Shown here: positions 1 to 5,630 of the stretch, piece after piece
Position numbering within the stretch: position 1 is the first letter of the stretch
Layout of the letters: each line of letters opens with the position of its first letter
DNA from: Paraconexibacter algicola
GTDB taxonomy: Bacteria > Actinomycetota > Thermoleophilia > Solirubrobacterales > Solirubrobacteraceae
Direction of reading: 5' to 3'
NCBI RefSeq assembly: GCF_003044185.1
Contig: NZ_PYYB01000002.1
Span: forward strand, 1 to 64,000
DNA: 64,000 nucleotides
Program-made: the position numbers and the translations under genes
Notes under the pieces: generated by a model
What the model was told of the DNA's origin: nothing
What the model saw: the letters and a program-made list of their open reading frames with translations, nothing else
Databases searched by the model: none

Positions 1-38
1 GTGAAGCCACCCTCGTCGTTGCGGAGCTTGTGCAGCAT
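1..38 (-). CDS. Type IV prepilin (PilA-like), N-terminal 12 codons only
   Basis: Read on the minus strand, the first 38 bases encode M-L-H-K-L-R-N-D-E-G-G-F-T and then leave the window. A short charged leader ending in Gly-Gly before Phe-Thr is the class III signal peptide that prepilin peptidase cuts before the Phe. A GGAGGA ribosome-binding site lies 9 nt before the ATG. The hydrophobic helix that should follow is outside the window. The pilus context (three pseudopilins at 2-5.6 kb, pilC/pilT at 59-61 kb) and the riboswitch just upstream support the call. It could be a major pilin or a pseudopilin. Confidence 0.75.
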   Translation of the reverse strand, partial: MLHKLRNDEGGF

Positions 39-111
39 GTGGAGTGATCCTCCTGGGATCGATGGACCTGTGGGTTGCCCTGCGTGCCAGCTCCGCGGGT
101 CGATGCCGAGG

Positions 112-208
112 GGCCCAAAGGTCCCGGTGGCGGCCCAGCGTCCTCGCTTGCGGTCGAGGCCTGTGGCTTTGCGTCCCGCCCTCGCGAGCGGTTTGCCCTT
201 GTCACCGT
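112..208 (-). promoter_or_regulatory. Cyclic di-GMP-I (GEMM-I) riboswitch upstream of the prepilin gene
   Basis: On the minus strand this stretch holds the GEMM-I core in order: AGGGCAAACC, a hairpin CCGCUC-GCGA-GGGCGG capped by a GNRA tetraloop, GGGACGCAAAGCC, then ACAGGCCU and a second helix CCUCG/CGAGG. The spacing and the GGGCAAACC and GGGACGCAAAGCC blocks match the Vibrio cholerae Vc2 aptamer almost base for base. The 3' boundary, near the CGGGACCUUUGG block, is approximate. The leader between aptamer and ATG includes GATCC-cagga-GGATC, which would bury the Shine-Dalgarno GGAGGATC in a small hairpin. Translational control of the pilin by c-di-GMP is therefore likely, but on or off is not decidable here. 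Confidence 0.88.
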
Positions 209-326
209 GGGTCTGACGAGGCTCGTATCGACCGGCCGTGCGTCGAGCTTGAGCCCAGAACTGGGTATGGACGTTCGTCCTAGTGCGCGGACCCGATCGT
301 CGGCGGACATCTGCGACCATCGGGGC

Positions 327-2038: not shown

Positions 2039-2131
2039 AGGTCGGCAGGCTAGCGGGCGCGGCGCCTCGTCCGTTCGTCCAGTTGGCCTCCCCCACTTGT
2101 GGTGAACGGCGAACGCGCCGATATCCCTGGT

Positions 2132-3070
2132 GTGCGGGACCGGATCACACACGCGCGACGGGACGAGACCGGCTTCACCCTGGTGGAGGTGCTGGTCGCC
2201 GCGACCCTGCTCATCGGCGGGCTGCTCGCGACCCTGACGCTGCTCGACAGCGGCAACCGCACGACCGCCACCTCCAAGCAGCGCGACGTCGCCAACGCCC
2301 TCGCCCAGGAGATGATCGAGCGGGCGACCGGCGGCCGGAACTCCCTGGCCCGCAACGACATGACGGACATCGACCGGCTCGCCGCCACCCCCGGTCCGGC
2401 GGACCGCCTGCGGGTCGCGCTGGACCCCGACGGGGACGCCGCCAGCACCGGCGTGACGCCGGCGACGCCGACCGCCGCGGGCGCCGCGCCGCTCAGCACG
2501 CCGCAGTCCTGGACGCTGCGCCGGCGCGGCACGACCTACACCGTCTCCTACCGTGCCTGCACCCTCTCCGACGCGTACCAGAACGTGTCCATCGCGGGCC
2601 CGTTCGACTGCCTGCGACCCGCCACCGGATCCGGGGGCTCGGGGACCGGGACGGCGGGCAGCTGCTCGCTCGAGCTGCTGCAGCCGCAGCAGCTCAACCC
2701 GATGGACCCCGGCACCCTGACGGCGCGGCTGCAGCTGCTCGGCATCACGGGCCTGAACGCGTGCGTCGGCGCCCTGCTCCCCGACCTCAGCACCGCGCTG
2801 TGCTCGGCGGTCGGGTCCAGCAACCTCGTCAACACCGTCTACAACGGGCTGCTCGGGGCCGGTGGCGGGGTCACCGGGCTGCTCGACGTGCTCGGCAGCG
2901 GCGCGAGCGTCGGCCTCTGCCCGCCCACGCAGGTCGAGACCGCCCTCAGCGGCGCGCAGGCGTCGATCGCCACGACCACCCGGCTCGCGGTCACCGTCGC
3001 GTGGACCGGCTTCGACGGGCGGGCCCGCTCGATCTCCCAGACCGCGCTCGTGCGCCGGCCGGTGTCGTGA
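2132..3070 (+). CDS. Type IV pseudopilin, PilV-like
   Basis: The N-terminus carries the prepilin motif E-T-G-F-T-L-V-E-V-L-V followed by a 20-residue hydrophobic helix. The Gly/Phe cleavage site and Glu at +5 are both present. The remaining roughly 280 residues are Ser/Thr/Gly-rich with several Cys, typical of actinobacterial minor pilins. The GTG at 2132 gives a 14-residue leader; the GTG at 2099 would give 25. It is first in a three-gene cluster with 1-nt or near-zero spacing, so the three proteins probably form a pilus tip or priming complex. Confidence 0.8.
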   Translation: MRDRITHARRDETGFTLVEVLVAATLLIGGLLATLTLLDSGNRTTATSKQRDVANALAQEMIERATGGRNSLARNDMTDIDRLAATPGPADRLRVALDPDGDAASTGVTPATPTAAGAAPLSTPQSWTLRRRGTTYTVSYRACTLSDAYQNVSIAGPFDCLRPATGSGGSGTGTAGSCSLELLQPQQLNPMDPGTLTARLQLLGITGLNACVGALLPDLSTALCSAVGSSNLVNTVYNGLLGAGGGVTGLLDVLGSGASVGLCPPTQVETALSGAQASIATTTRLAVTVAWTGFDGRARSISQTALVRRPVS

Positions 3071-3714
3071 TGCGCGCGCGGCTGCGGGACGAGCGCGGAC
3101 TCACCCTCGTCGAGCTGCTCGTCGGCATGACGCTCGGCATCCTCGTGCTCGGCGCCGTCCTCACCGGCTTCGAGCGGTTCGCCGGCGCGCAGCAGACCGC
3201 GAGCGAGGCGACCGCCGCCCAGGACACCGCCCGTGCCCAGGTCCGCGCGACCGTGGCCGAGCTGCGCGAGGCGCGGGTCGCCACCGGGCAGATCGGCCCG
3301 ATCCCGGCCGGCTGGACGGTCACGCGCAGCGACCTCGTCTTCGCCACCTACGTGCCGTCCGGGGCCACGAGCGTCCCCGGCTGGGTGCGCTACTGCACGC
3401 TCACCAGCGGCGCGACGTCCTCCCTGGTGCGGGCCAGCCGCGCCGGCGACACCTGGGTCGCCCCCGGGGCGTGCGCCGCGACCGGCGGCACCGGCGGGTG
3501 GACCCACCAGGTCGTGCTGCGCGACCTGCTCCAGCAGCCCGGTCAGCTCTTCGACTACGCGTCCGACGCCTGCGTCGGCGCGACCTGCCTGCCGGCCGCC
3601 GCCGACGTGCGCGCCGTCGGGATCCGCGTCGCCGTCGCCCGCAGGGTCGGGTCCACCGCGCTCGGCACCGTCGTGCGCGGCGCCGTCTCGTTCCGCAACC
3701 GTCCCGCCACGTGA
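3070..3714 (+). CDS. Type IV pseudopilin, PilW/PilJ-like
   Basis: A 214-residue protein. Residues 1-32 hold a charged leader (D-E-R-G), cleavage before L-T-L-V-E-L-L-V and a hydrophobic helix. Leu instead of Phe at mature position 1 is tolerated in minor pilins. The body is beta-rich with paired Cys (Y-C-T-L, G-A-C-A, D-A-C-V-G-A-T-C). The start ATG overlaps the upstream stop by one base (TGATG), which argues for translational coupling with the PilV-like gene. It probably acts as a minor pilin in pilus assembly at the membrane. Confidence 0.8.
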   Translation: MRARLRDERGLTLVELLVGMTLGILVLGAVLTGFERFAGAQQTASEATAAQDTARAQVRATVAELREARVATGQIGPIPAGWTVTRSDLVFATYVPSGATSVPGWVRYCTLTSGATSSLVRASRAGDTWVAPGACAATGGTGGWTHQVVLRDLLQQPGQLFDYASDACVGATCLPAAADVRAVGIRVAVARRVGSTALGTVVRGAVSFRNRPAT

Positions 3715-3728
3715 AGCAGGAGTTCCCC

Positions 3729-5630
3729 GTGCCCGCTGCTCTCCCCCACCGCCTGCGCGACGAGTCCGGGATGGCGCTCGTCCCGGTCATCTCGCTGCTG
3801 GCCGTCATGGTCATGCTCGGCCTGGCGCTGCTGGCGCTCACCGACACGCAGACGCGCGAGGCGCGCGCCCAGCGCGGCGCCGACGCCGCCCAGGCGCTCG
3901 CCGAGGGGGTCGTGGCCGCCACCGCCGGGGCGCTGGCGAGCAACTCGACCGCCGCCGACTGGCCGACCTCGGGCAGCTGCCAGAACGTGACGGGCACGCT
4001 CGCCCAGAGCACGACCGCGTCCGCGGCCACGCTCGAGGGCCGCATCACCACCGCGATCCGTGACCGGTTCGCGTCGAGCTCCGCCGACTACGACGGTGCC
4101 GCGTTCGGCACCACCTGGCGGGTCAGCGTGTGCCCGGTCGCGGGGACCCTCGTCGGCGGGCGCATCGACCAGGACGGCGAGCGGCGGTGGGACGAGTCGT
4201 TCCTCACCCGGACCGTCCCCGCGCTCTCGGGCCGCCGCCCGGCGCAGGTGGCGCTGTGGGTGCGCGCGCAGGCGCGCGTGGCGCGCACCGGCACCGGGAC
4301 GCTGGCGCGCGCCCGCGCCGTCGCGACGAAGATCCGCCAGGGGACCGCGCCGTTCTCCGTCCCGCTCGGCTACGCGGTCGGCACGGGCTCGTTCTCGACC
4401 GAGGCGACGACCTCGGTGAACAACGTCGCCTCCGGGCAGCTGCTCGGCTCGGTGCTCGGCACGAAGCCGCTGATCGCCCCGACGAGCTCGAAGATCGGCA
4501 TCCGCTGCGGCCTGCTGAACACGCTGAACAACCCGAGCTCGGTGTGCCTCAGCGGCACGCTGTCCGGCGTGCAGGGCGCCACCAACGCCCTCGGGCTCTC
4601 GACCCTCAACGGCCTGCTCGGGATCGACCGGTCGCTCACGCTCGGCACCTGGGCGATGGCGCCCGCCGACGCCCAGCAGGGCTACCGCGACGCGGCGACG
4701 CTGACGAAGGACACGGTCGCCGGCGGCGGCAGCATCGCCACGAAGAGCGCGTCCGGCGCGCCCGAGTGCTTCACCGAGGCCACCGACCAGAACTCGATCG
4801 TCTCCCTCGGCCAGGTCGGTGACGGCAACCAGTACTGCACGCTCAGCACGGCCCGCACGTTCAAGATCCTCGTGGTCGGCCGCGGCGGCGTGCGGATCAC
4901 CGGACCGGTCACCGGCGTCGTCTACGCGCTGAACCTCCAGGAGTGCGGGTCCGACGGCGTCTGCTCCCAGAGCGAGCGCACGAGCGCCGCCGTCCGCGAG
5001 GTCGTGCGGATCGAGGGCAACACCGGCAAGGTCACCGGCTCGGTGTGGGCCGACGGCGCCGGCGGGGCGGTCGGGATCTACCCGTCGCTGACGAGCCAGA
5101 GCACCGCCGCCCCCGCGCTGCTGGGCGGCGCCTGCTCGATCCCCGTCCTCGGACCGGTGCTGAACGTCCTCGGCGGCACGCTCGCCGGGGTCGGCCAGCT
5201 GCTCGGGCAGACGCTCGGGCTCGTCGCCGGCGTGCAGGAGCAGGTCCGCTACCCGGGCGGCGCCTCCTCGCTGACCGGCTGCCAGGCGCTCACCAACCAG
5301 CTCGGCACGCTCACCGACAGCCAGCTGCTGAACCTGTTCGCGACCGGCGGCGACGTCGCCGTCCCGGTCTCCGAGCGCCGCACGCGCACGTGCAAGACGT
5401 GGCTGGTCGTCTGCCTGGAGTGGAACGCCTGGTCGTCCTGGACGACGAAGGAGACCCAGACGGTGTCGCTGCCCGCGCTGACCTCCGACGTCGTCGGGGC
5501 GCTGACCTCGGCGCTCACGAGCTACACCGCGATCCAGTACGACGAGAACGTCGTGAAGGCCGCGTCGGTCGGCTTCACGGTCGGCGGCGGGCCCGTGTCG
5601 GGCACCTACCGCAACGTCGCGCCGAACTGA
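3729..5630 (+). CDS. Large PilX-like pilus protein
   Basis: A 633-residue protein. The GTG at 3729 has an AGGAG at 3718-3722; an earlier GTG at 3711 is possible. The N-terminus D-E-S-G-M-A-L-V-P-V-I-S-L-L plus hydrophobic helix resembles PilX-type prepilins, where the Phe and Glu of classical pilins are lost. The long extracellular part is rich in Ser, Thr, Gly and Leu with scattered Cys pairs and no enzymatic motif I recognise. Its place as the last gene of the minor-pilin cluster suggests a tip or adhesin-like role. That role is inferred from context. Confidence 0.65.
   Translation: MPAALPHRLRDESGMALVPVISLLAVMVMLGLALLALTDTQTREARAQRGADAAQALAEGVVAATAGALASNSTAADWPTSGSCQNVTGTLAQSTTASAATLEGRITTAIRDRFASSSADYDGAAFGTTWRVSVCPVAGTLVGGRIDQDGERRWDESFLTRTVPALSGRRPAQVALWVRAQARVARTGTGTLARARAVATKIRQGTAPFSVPLGYAVGTGSFSTEATTSVNNVASGQLLGSVLGTKPLIAPTSSKIGIRCGLLNTLNNPSSVCLSGTLSGVQGATNALGLSTLNGLLGIDRSLTLGTWAMAPADAQQGYRDAATLTKDTVAGGGSIATKSASGAPECFTEATDQNSIVSLGQVGDGNQYCTLSTARTFKILVVGRGGVRITGPVTGVVYALNLQECGSDGVCSQSERTSAAVREVVRIEGNTGKVTGSVWADGAGGAVGIYPSLTSQSTAAPALLGGACSIPVLGPVLNVLGGTLAGVGQLLGQTLGLVAGVQEQVRYPGGASSLTGCQALTNQLGTLTDSQLLNLFATGGDVAVPVSERRTRTCKTWLVVCLEWNAWSSWTTKETQTVSLPALTSDVVGALTSALTSYTAIQYDENVVKAASVGFTVGGGPVSGTYRNVAPN

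Follow-up and report, generated by a model that had tools for sequence, protein, structure and literature searches.

A c-di-GMP-I aptamer ahead of a type IV pilin gene

The DNA analyzed here (the window) comprises the first 64,000 nucleotides (nt) of contig NZ_PYYB01000002.1, termed C2 below, from the genome of the actinobacterium Paraconexibacter algicola. At its very edge, on the minus strand, the window carries a cyclic di-GMP class I (c-di-GMP-I) riboswitch aptamer followed by the start of a type IV prepilin gene, an arrangement first pointed out in a preliminary description made from the sequence alone. From upstream to downstream, the elements considered in this report are as follows.

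268 to 283, minus strand: conserved upstream motif CTAGGACGAACGTCCA, a candidate activator site (from the ACGTCCA statistic)
248 to 252, minus strand: -35-like TCAAG of a WhiG/flagellar-type promoter (published consensus, group statistic)
225 to 232, minus strand: -10-like GTCGATAC of the same promoter, 17 nt upstream of the aptamer
213 to 217, minus strand: 5' strand of the putative outer stem P0, GUCAG (GYCRG conservation, strand swap)
203 to 207, minus strand: 5' strand of stem P1, CGGUG, pairing with CACCG at 129 to 125 (sequence)
126 to 207, minus strand: c-di-GMP-I riboswitch aptamer, RF01051 (cmscan)
119 to 124, minus strand: 5' strand of a putative long-range helix, GGACCU, pairing with 69 to 64
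86 to 90, minus strand: 3' strand of P0, CUGGC (complement in the leader, strand swap)
64 to 69, minus strand: 3' strand of the long-range helix, AGGUCC, just upstream of the next element (subset swap test)
46 to 60, minus strand: Shine-Dalgarno (SD) hairpin GAUCC-CAGGA-GGAUC (60 to 56 / 50 to 46), with AGGAGG at 54 to 49 (sequence, swap test)
1 to 38, minus strand: start of the type IV prepilin gene, MLHKLRNDEGGF..., with ATG at 38 to 36, cut by the contig end (orthologues at loci L021, L043, and L046)

The GEMM-I aptamer proposed at the window edge was borne out by the covariance model: RF01051 matched positions 207 to 126 of the minus strand with 50.8 bits against a gathering score of 35 (E = 5.5e-7; model positions 1 to 87, complete), and it was the sole Rfam family matched within the window. 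Genome-wide, two RF01051 matches exceeded the cut-off, the window copy (E = 9.5e-9) and another at C1:817601-817678. The bases that contact the ligand in the Vc2 and Vc1 riboswitches are G20, A47, and C92 (PMC4744006). On the minus strand of the window, AGGGCAAACC, a P2 hairpin with a GCGA cap, and GGGACGCAAAGCC follow one another in the order originally described, the GNRA tetraloop on P2 being CUC-GCGA-GGG. With Vc2 numbered as we take it to be, the RF01051 alignment places G, A, and C at the equivalents of the three contact bases (in GGCAAA, CGCAAAG, and GCC, respectively). Riboswitches for cyclic GMP-AMP (cGAMP; GEMM-Ib) have A in place of G20, and the window, with its G, falls outside that group. 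Membership in RF03167 (c-di-GMP-I-GGC) was likewise rejected, as the window scored 54.9 bits against a cut-off of 59 and has A at position 47, where the consensus of that family has G. Because of its G/A/C contact bases, its subthreshold RF03167 score, and the A at position 47, we file the window aptamer as canonical c-di-GMP-I, with c-di-GMP as the predicted ligand.

Binding of some other cyclic dinucleotide, either cGAMP or the unknown ligand of c-di-GMP-I-GGC, is very improbable: a search confined to this single region keeps RF03167 over RF01051, and RF03167 is also picked for the same-genus locus L021, but the bases at positions 20 and 47 and the score below the RF03167 cut-off argue otherwise. 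We give even less credence to a decayed or chance aptamer devoid of function. Its 50.8 bits are fewer than the scores of most relatives among the matches listed, but the E value over the window is low, and dozens of pilin loci have the same aptamer position, promoter, and leader design.

Downstream of the aptamer, the ATG opens a reading frame encoding MLHKLRNDEGGF and breaking off two bases into the following codon; the prepilin start EGGFT given in the preliminary description can thus be read as far as EGGF, and its final T was extrapolated. Since C2 ends at window base 1, the gene is incomplete, and the class III signal peptide breaks off after EGG|F; the full motif (G|F, E at +5, and a hydrophobic helix) is seen in same-genus orthologues. 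That the downstream gene is a pilin is supported by relatives, in which the full gene lies directly behind the aptamer. Neither of the outcomes named beforehand as refuting, lack of a significant covariance match or a downstream gene other than a pilin, thus occurred. At locus L021 (genome G119), for example, the RF01051 aptamer precedes genes for a complete 140-residue pilin, for another pilin in tandem with it, and for a protein resembling prepilin peptidase. The remainder of the P. algicola pilin had been suggested to lie on a neighboring contig, and contig C4 indeed opens with an 85-residue pilin C terminus (TKSDVRNAVTMVESCL...GGCNSTGGW*), whose alignment with the C-terminal half of the L021 pilin spans 88 columns at 40% identity. 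Behind this fragment are a reversed glycosyltransferase gene, further prepilin genes, and then genes for PilD, PilM, and PilO. C2 and C4, which we infer to join here, are probably separated by an assembly gap within the pilin locus. Within the window itself, a minor prepilin-like cluster encoding two proteins with the N_methyl motif and a 639-residue PilX-like protein is located near the riboswitch pilin (2099 to 5630, plus strand).

A putative upstream promoter and its candidate sigma factors

The published consensus of WhiG/flagellar promoters is TAAA-N15/16-GCCGATAA (PMC8325347), with which the predicted window promoter, TCAA-N16-GTCGATAC, agrees at 9 of 12 positions; the riboswitch loci as a group show the pattern TCAA/TAAA-N14-17-CCGATA just upstream of their aptamers. 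Scored as a match at 7 or more of 9 positions within 12 to 32 nt of the aptamer and compared with shuffled sequences, the promoter motif was present in 39/41 pilin-class loci versus an expected 4.4 (maximum 10 of 100). Among other riboswitch loci, it was present in 33/86 versus an expected 7.9. These counts are not fully independent of the data because some of the tested loci had been used to refine the motif. The unmodified published consensus gave a weaker but consistent result (13/23 pilin loci at p <= 0.05). In many pilin-class loci, the motif TAGnACRnACGTCCAG lies farther upstream than the promoter, and ACGTCCA, allowing one mismatch at most, was found in 24/41 pilin-class upstream regions versus 6.6 in shuffles (maximum 13 of 100). 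The longer motif also precedes many non-pilin riboswitches and is a possible regulator site.

The P. algicola genome encodes both partners of the RsiG-WhiG anti-sigma switch. Its one RsiG (85 residues; PF22802, 72.3 bits) has a single motif, E-x3-S-x2-R-x3-H-x3-D, and matches the solved RsiG chains of Rubrobacter and Streptomyces in the PDB, and for its WhiG (gene at C3:16939; 283 bits to FliA_WhiG), the top PDB hit is WhiG from the Streptomyces RsiG-WhiG complex (E = 1e-79). The motif is as in Conexibacter, whose RsiG version with H is reported to bind c-di-GMP (PMC8325347). A single-motif RsiG of the H type, together with high GC content, suggests that the genome is Thermoleophilia-like. RsiG was found in 65/71 high-quality genomes of the family. 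To our knowledge, RsiG-WhiG is the only c-di-GMP-dependent anti-sigma switch described. Given a WhiG-type promoter, an aptamer, and genes for both WhiG and RsiG, a single pilin mRNA probably receives two c-di-GMP inputs.

Alternatively, the riboswitch may act on the pilin while FliA or another sigma factor reads the promoter and RsiG-WhiG is uninvolved, which would leave a single c-di-GMP input. The genome holds two sigma factors of the FliA/WhiG family, and flagellar sigma factors and WhiG have a common promoter specificity (PMC8325347), both of which favor this alternative. We nevertheless regard it as unlikely: RsiG is nearly universal in the family, RsiG-WhiG has been proposed to control pili in deep-branching actinobacteria, in Rubrobacter on the basis of promoter and transcription-start mapping (PMC8325347), and one relative has the same promoter and riboswitch before an RsiG-like gene. 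At that locus (L093; genome G018, C17:36016-36090, minus strand), the gene for a 110-residue RsiG-like protein, which scores 42.9 bits, is preceded by the ACGTCCAG motif, a sequence resembling a WhiG-type promoter, and a c-di-GMP-I aptamer; the riboswitch there is predicted to be wired to an anti-sigma paralogue.

Leader architecture and proposed dual control

The leaders between aptamer and pilin gene point to a dedicated expression platform. Within about 20 nt upstream of the aptamer, GYCRG occurs in 38/39 long-leader pilin riboswitches versus 11/89 others (Fisher p = 2e-21), and its complement CUGRC lies in the leader, with all five core pairs standard in 30/39 cases and U-A replacing C-G in two. 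Swapping P0 strands between the 39 sequences lowers the helix score (z = 3.9; 0/200 swaps reach the observed value); this test and those described next preserve composition but not full phylogeny. P0 is predicted to enclose the aptamer in pilin-class leaders. The SD hairpin, noted earlier as GATCC/GGATC, covaries across the same 39 leaders (z = 4.9). In the 13 leaders in which P1 is followed by GGG, the window leader among them, the initial ~16 nt pair with sequence immediately preceding the SD hairpin; 0/500 permutations reach the observed value (1/500 at one sequence per genome), a test that is not fully independent because the subset was chosen after the leaders had been seen. Some leaders also show a 5'-anti-P1 hairpin, GCACC/GGUGC.

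We hypothesize, with a probability of about 0.72, that a c-di-GMP-I riboswitch lies in the leader of a type IV major-pilin mRNA transcribed from a probably WhiG-dependent promoter and that this mRNA is hence subject to two c-di-GMP inputs. Pilin mRNA would be made from the WhiG-dependent promoter until c-di-GMP-bound RsiG sequesters WhiG, whereupon pilin transcription would stop, and the aptamer would adjust translation of the pre-existing pilin mRNA via P0, the long-range helix, and the SD hairpin. Formation of P1 would favor P0 and allow the SD hairpin to form, turning translation OFF with the same sign as RsiG. We lean slightly toward this OFF direction, because P1 should help to close P0 and because RsiG likewise represses at high c-di-GMP.

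A translational ON switch, in which c-di-GMP-bound P1 would stack on the long-range helix, which in turn would hold the anti-SD strand and free the SD sequence, is a possibility to which we assign clearly less weight. It draws support from the way in which P1 would continue coaxially into the long-range helix, with no gap between CACC, its 3' strand, and GGG..., and both helices coexist in the minimum-energy fold of the L021 leader. In that leader, the anti-SD strand AAUCC lies within the long helix (GGGGUCGCAAUGGACC/GGUCCACUGCAAUCCC), which would therefore compete with the SD hairpin. Pilus riboswitches elsewhere are also ON switches, namely, pilM of Geobacter metallireducens with cGAMP (PMC9262584) and the class II pilin operon of Clostridioides difficile (PMC11477304). 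However, the long-range core of the window, GGACCU/AGGUCC, ends short of the anti-SD strand, conservation across all three families of long-leader pilin riboswitches (f1, f2, and f4) is seen for P0 and the SD hairpin but not for the long-range helix, and the sign would oppose that of RsiG. An ON switch combined with transcriptional shut-off by RsiG at high c-di-GMP would place maximal pilin levels at intermediate concentrations of the messenger.

Several observations weigh against the dual-control hypothesis outlined above. The -35 element of the window reads TCAA where the consensus has TAAA, and the second FliA/WhiG-family sigma factor, which is FliA-like and encoded on C1, could read the same promoter. 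The window pilin is cut, its connection to C4 is a join that we propose, and the fragment on C4 may instead belong to a second pilin in tandem. The long-range helix is absent from leaders outside the 13-member subset, and base pairing between the anti-SD strand and the 3' strand of P0, visible by eye in several leaders, is not significant overall (z = 1.1). Further, in ViennaRNA ensembles of 35 leaders, mean SD accessibility was the same with P1 enforced as with P1 forbidden (0.46 versus 0.46), and no change was consistent among the leaders.

For the order as a whole, we consider it somewhat probable, if less so than dual control at the window pilin, that major-pilin mRNAs carry two stacked, chemically different c-di-GMP sensors, a c-di-GMP-armed anti-sigma factor at the promoter and a leader riboswitch with P0 and a long-range SD switch, which would act together as a two-step or band-pass filter, and that at least one relative has an RsiG-like gene wired to the riboswitch as well. 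If so, a single second messenger would act on the gene at two levels, transcription and translation, and the locus would offer a testable system for the stacking of sensors, in which agreeing signs would give a tighter shut-off and opposing signs a peak at mid-concentration.

Distribution and comparison with known systems

RF01051 is carried by 89/146 genomes of the family and 128/232 of the order, with up to 10 copies per genome. The preliminary description singled out the occurrence in a high-GC actinobacterium, but c-di-GMP-I aptamers are not rare in the phylum: RF01051 was found in 155/396 sampled genomes, and the aptamer alone is therefore ordinary there. Its downstream genes form two classes, pilins with leaders of 49 to 107 nt and mostly secreted proteins with short leaders, the latter including CAP proteins, glycoside hydrolases, a polysaccharide lyase, beta-helix proteins, and subtilases. 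The 39 long-leader pilin riboswitches are distinct cases, several of them in tandem with one riboswitch each; at L043, L046, L084, and L257, tandem pilin genes each have their own c-di-GMP-I riboswitch. Not all pilins of the family are so equipped, as RF01051 exceeded the cut-off at 3/19 newly fetched pilin loci. A scan with a pilin alignment matched generic pilin N termini from all phyla, and 10 of the matched loci, mostly actinobacterial, showed no RF01051 match.

Other arrangements were seen as well. At L059 and L092, pilin-like genes stand behind c-di-GMP-I aptamers with leaders of 19 to 22 nt and have no WhiG-type -10 element at the usual place. The second riboswitch of P. algicola, on C1 (L002, L004), is upstream of a gene for a secreted 341-residue protein without a Pfam match, and proteins resembling it are also found behind riboswitches in the same genus (L044, L045). 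Genome G114 has three copies of a riboswitch followed by a gene for a 204-residue secreted protein (L047, L048, and L049), with a shared protein start, at distant chromosomal sites.

We found no report in the open-access literature of a pilus operon under GEMM-I control by c-di-GMP itself, which is not proof of novelty, and, among the papers listed by searches of the open literature, no relevant report on riboswitches in Thermoleophilia genera. These results would add a pilin regulon and secreted matrix-type enzymes to the genes under c-di-GMP-I riboswitches, in a group for which that literature yielded no such report. More surprising than the aptamer itself are the WhiG-type promoter, the outer stem, and RsiG, all of which go beyond the preliminary description.

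Compared with RF01051 riboswitches in general, the window aptamer is a full-length match above the cut-off with the equivalents of G20, A47, and C92, and it lies in the 5' leader of a gene for a surface structure; its leader differs in adding the lineage-specific P0, the SD hairpin, the long-range helix, and a WhiG-type promoter immediately upstream. With c-di-GMP-I-GGC (RF03167), it has fold and clan in common and similar flanks, but it has A instead of the consensus G at position 47 and scores under the cut-off. Geobacter had been named as a precedent for GEMM-I control of pili, but the pilM riboswitch of G. metallireducens senses cGAMP rather than c-di-GMP (PMC9262584). That system resembles ours in placing a GEMM-I-type aptamer before a type IV pilus operon and differs in being a transcriptional ON switch for cGAMP, whereas c-di-GMP and the translational level are predicted here, in an actinobacterium. 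The other precedent named, class II control of pili in Clostridioides, is correct: the type IV pilin operon of C. difficile has a c-di-GMP-II riboswitch (PMC11477304). There, too, a pilin operon of a monoderm is under c-di-GMP control, but by a class II aptamer of unrelated structure that acts as a transcriptional ON switch. Finally, the locus shares with the RsiG-WhiG system (PMC8325347) a WhiG-type promoter at pilin genes and the presence of genes for a single-motif RsiG and WhiG; riboswitches go unmentioned in that paper, whereas here a c-di-GMP aptamer, as predicted from its sequence, lies on the same transcript.
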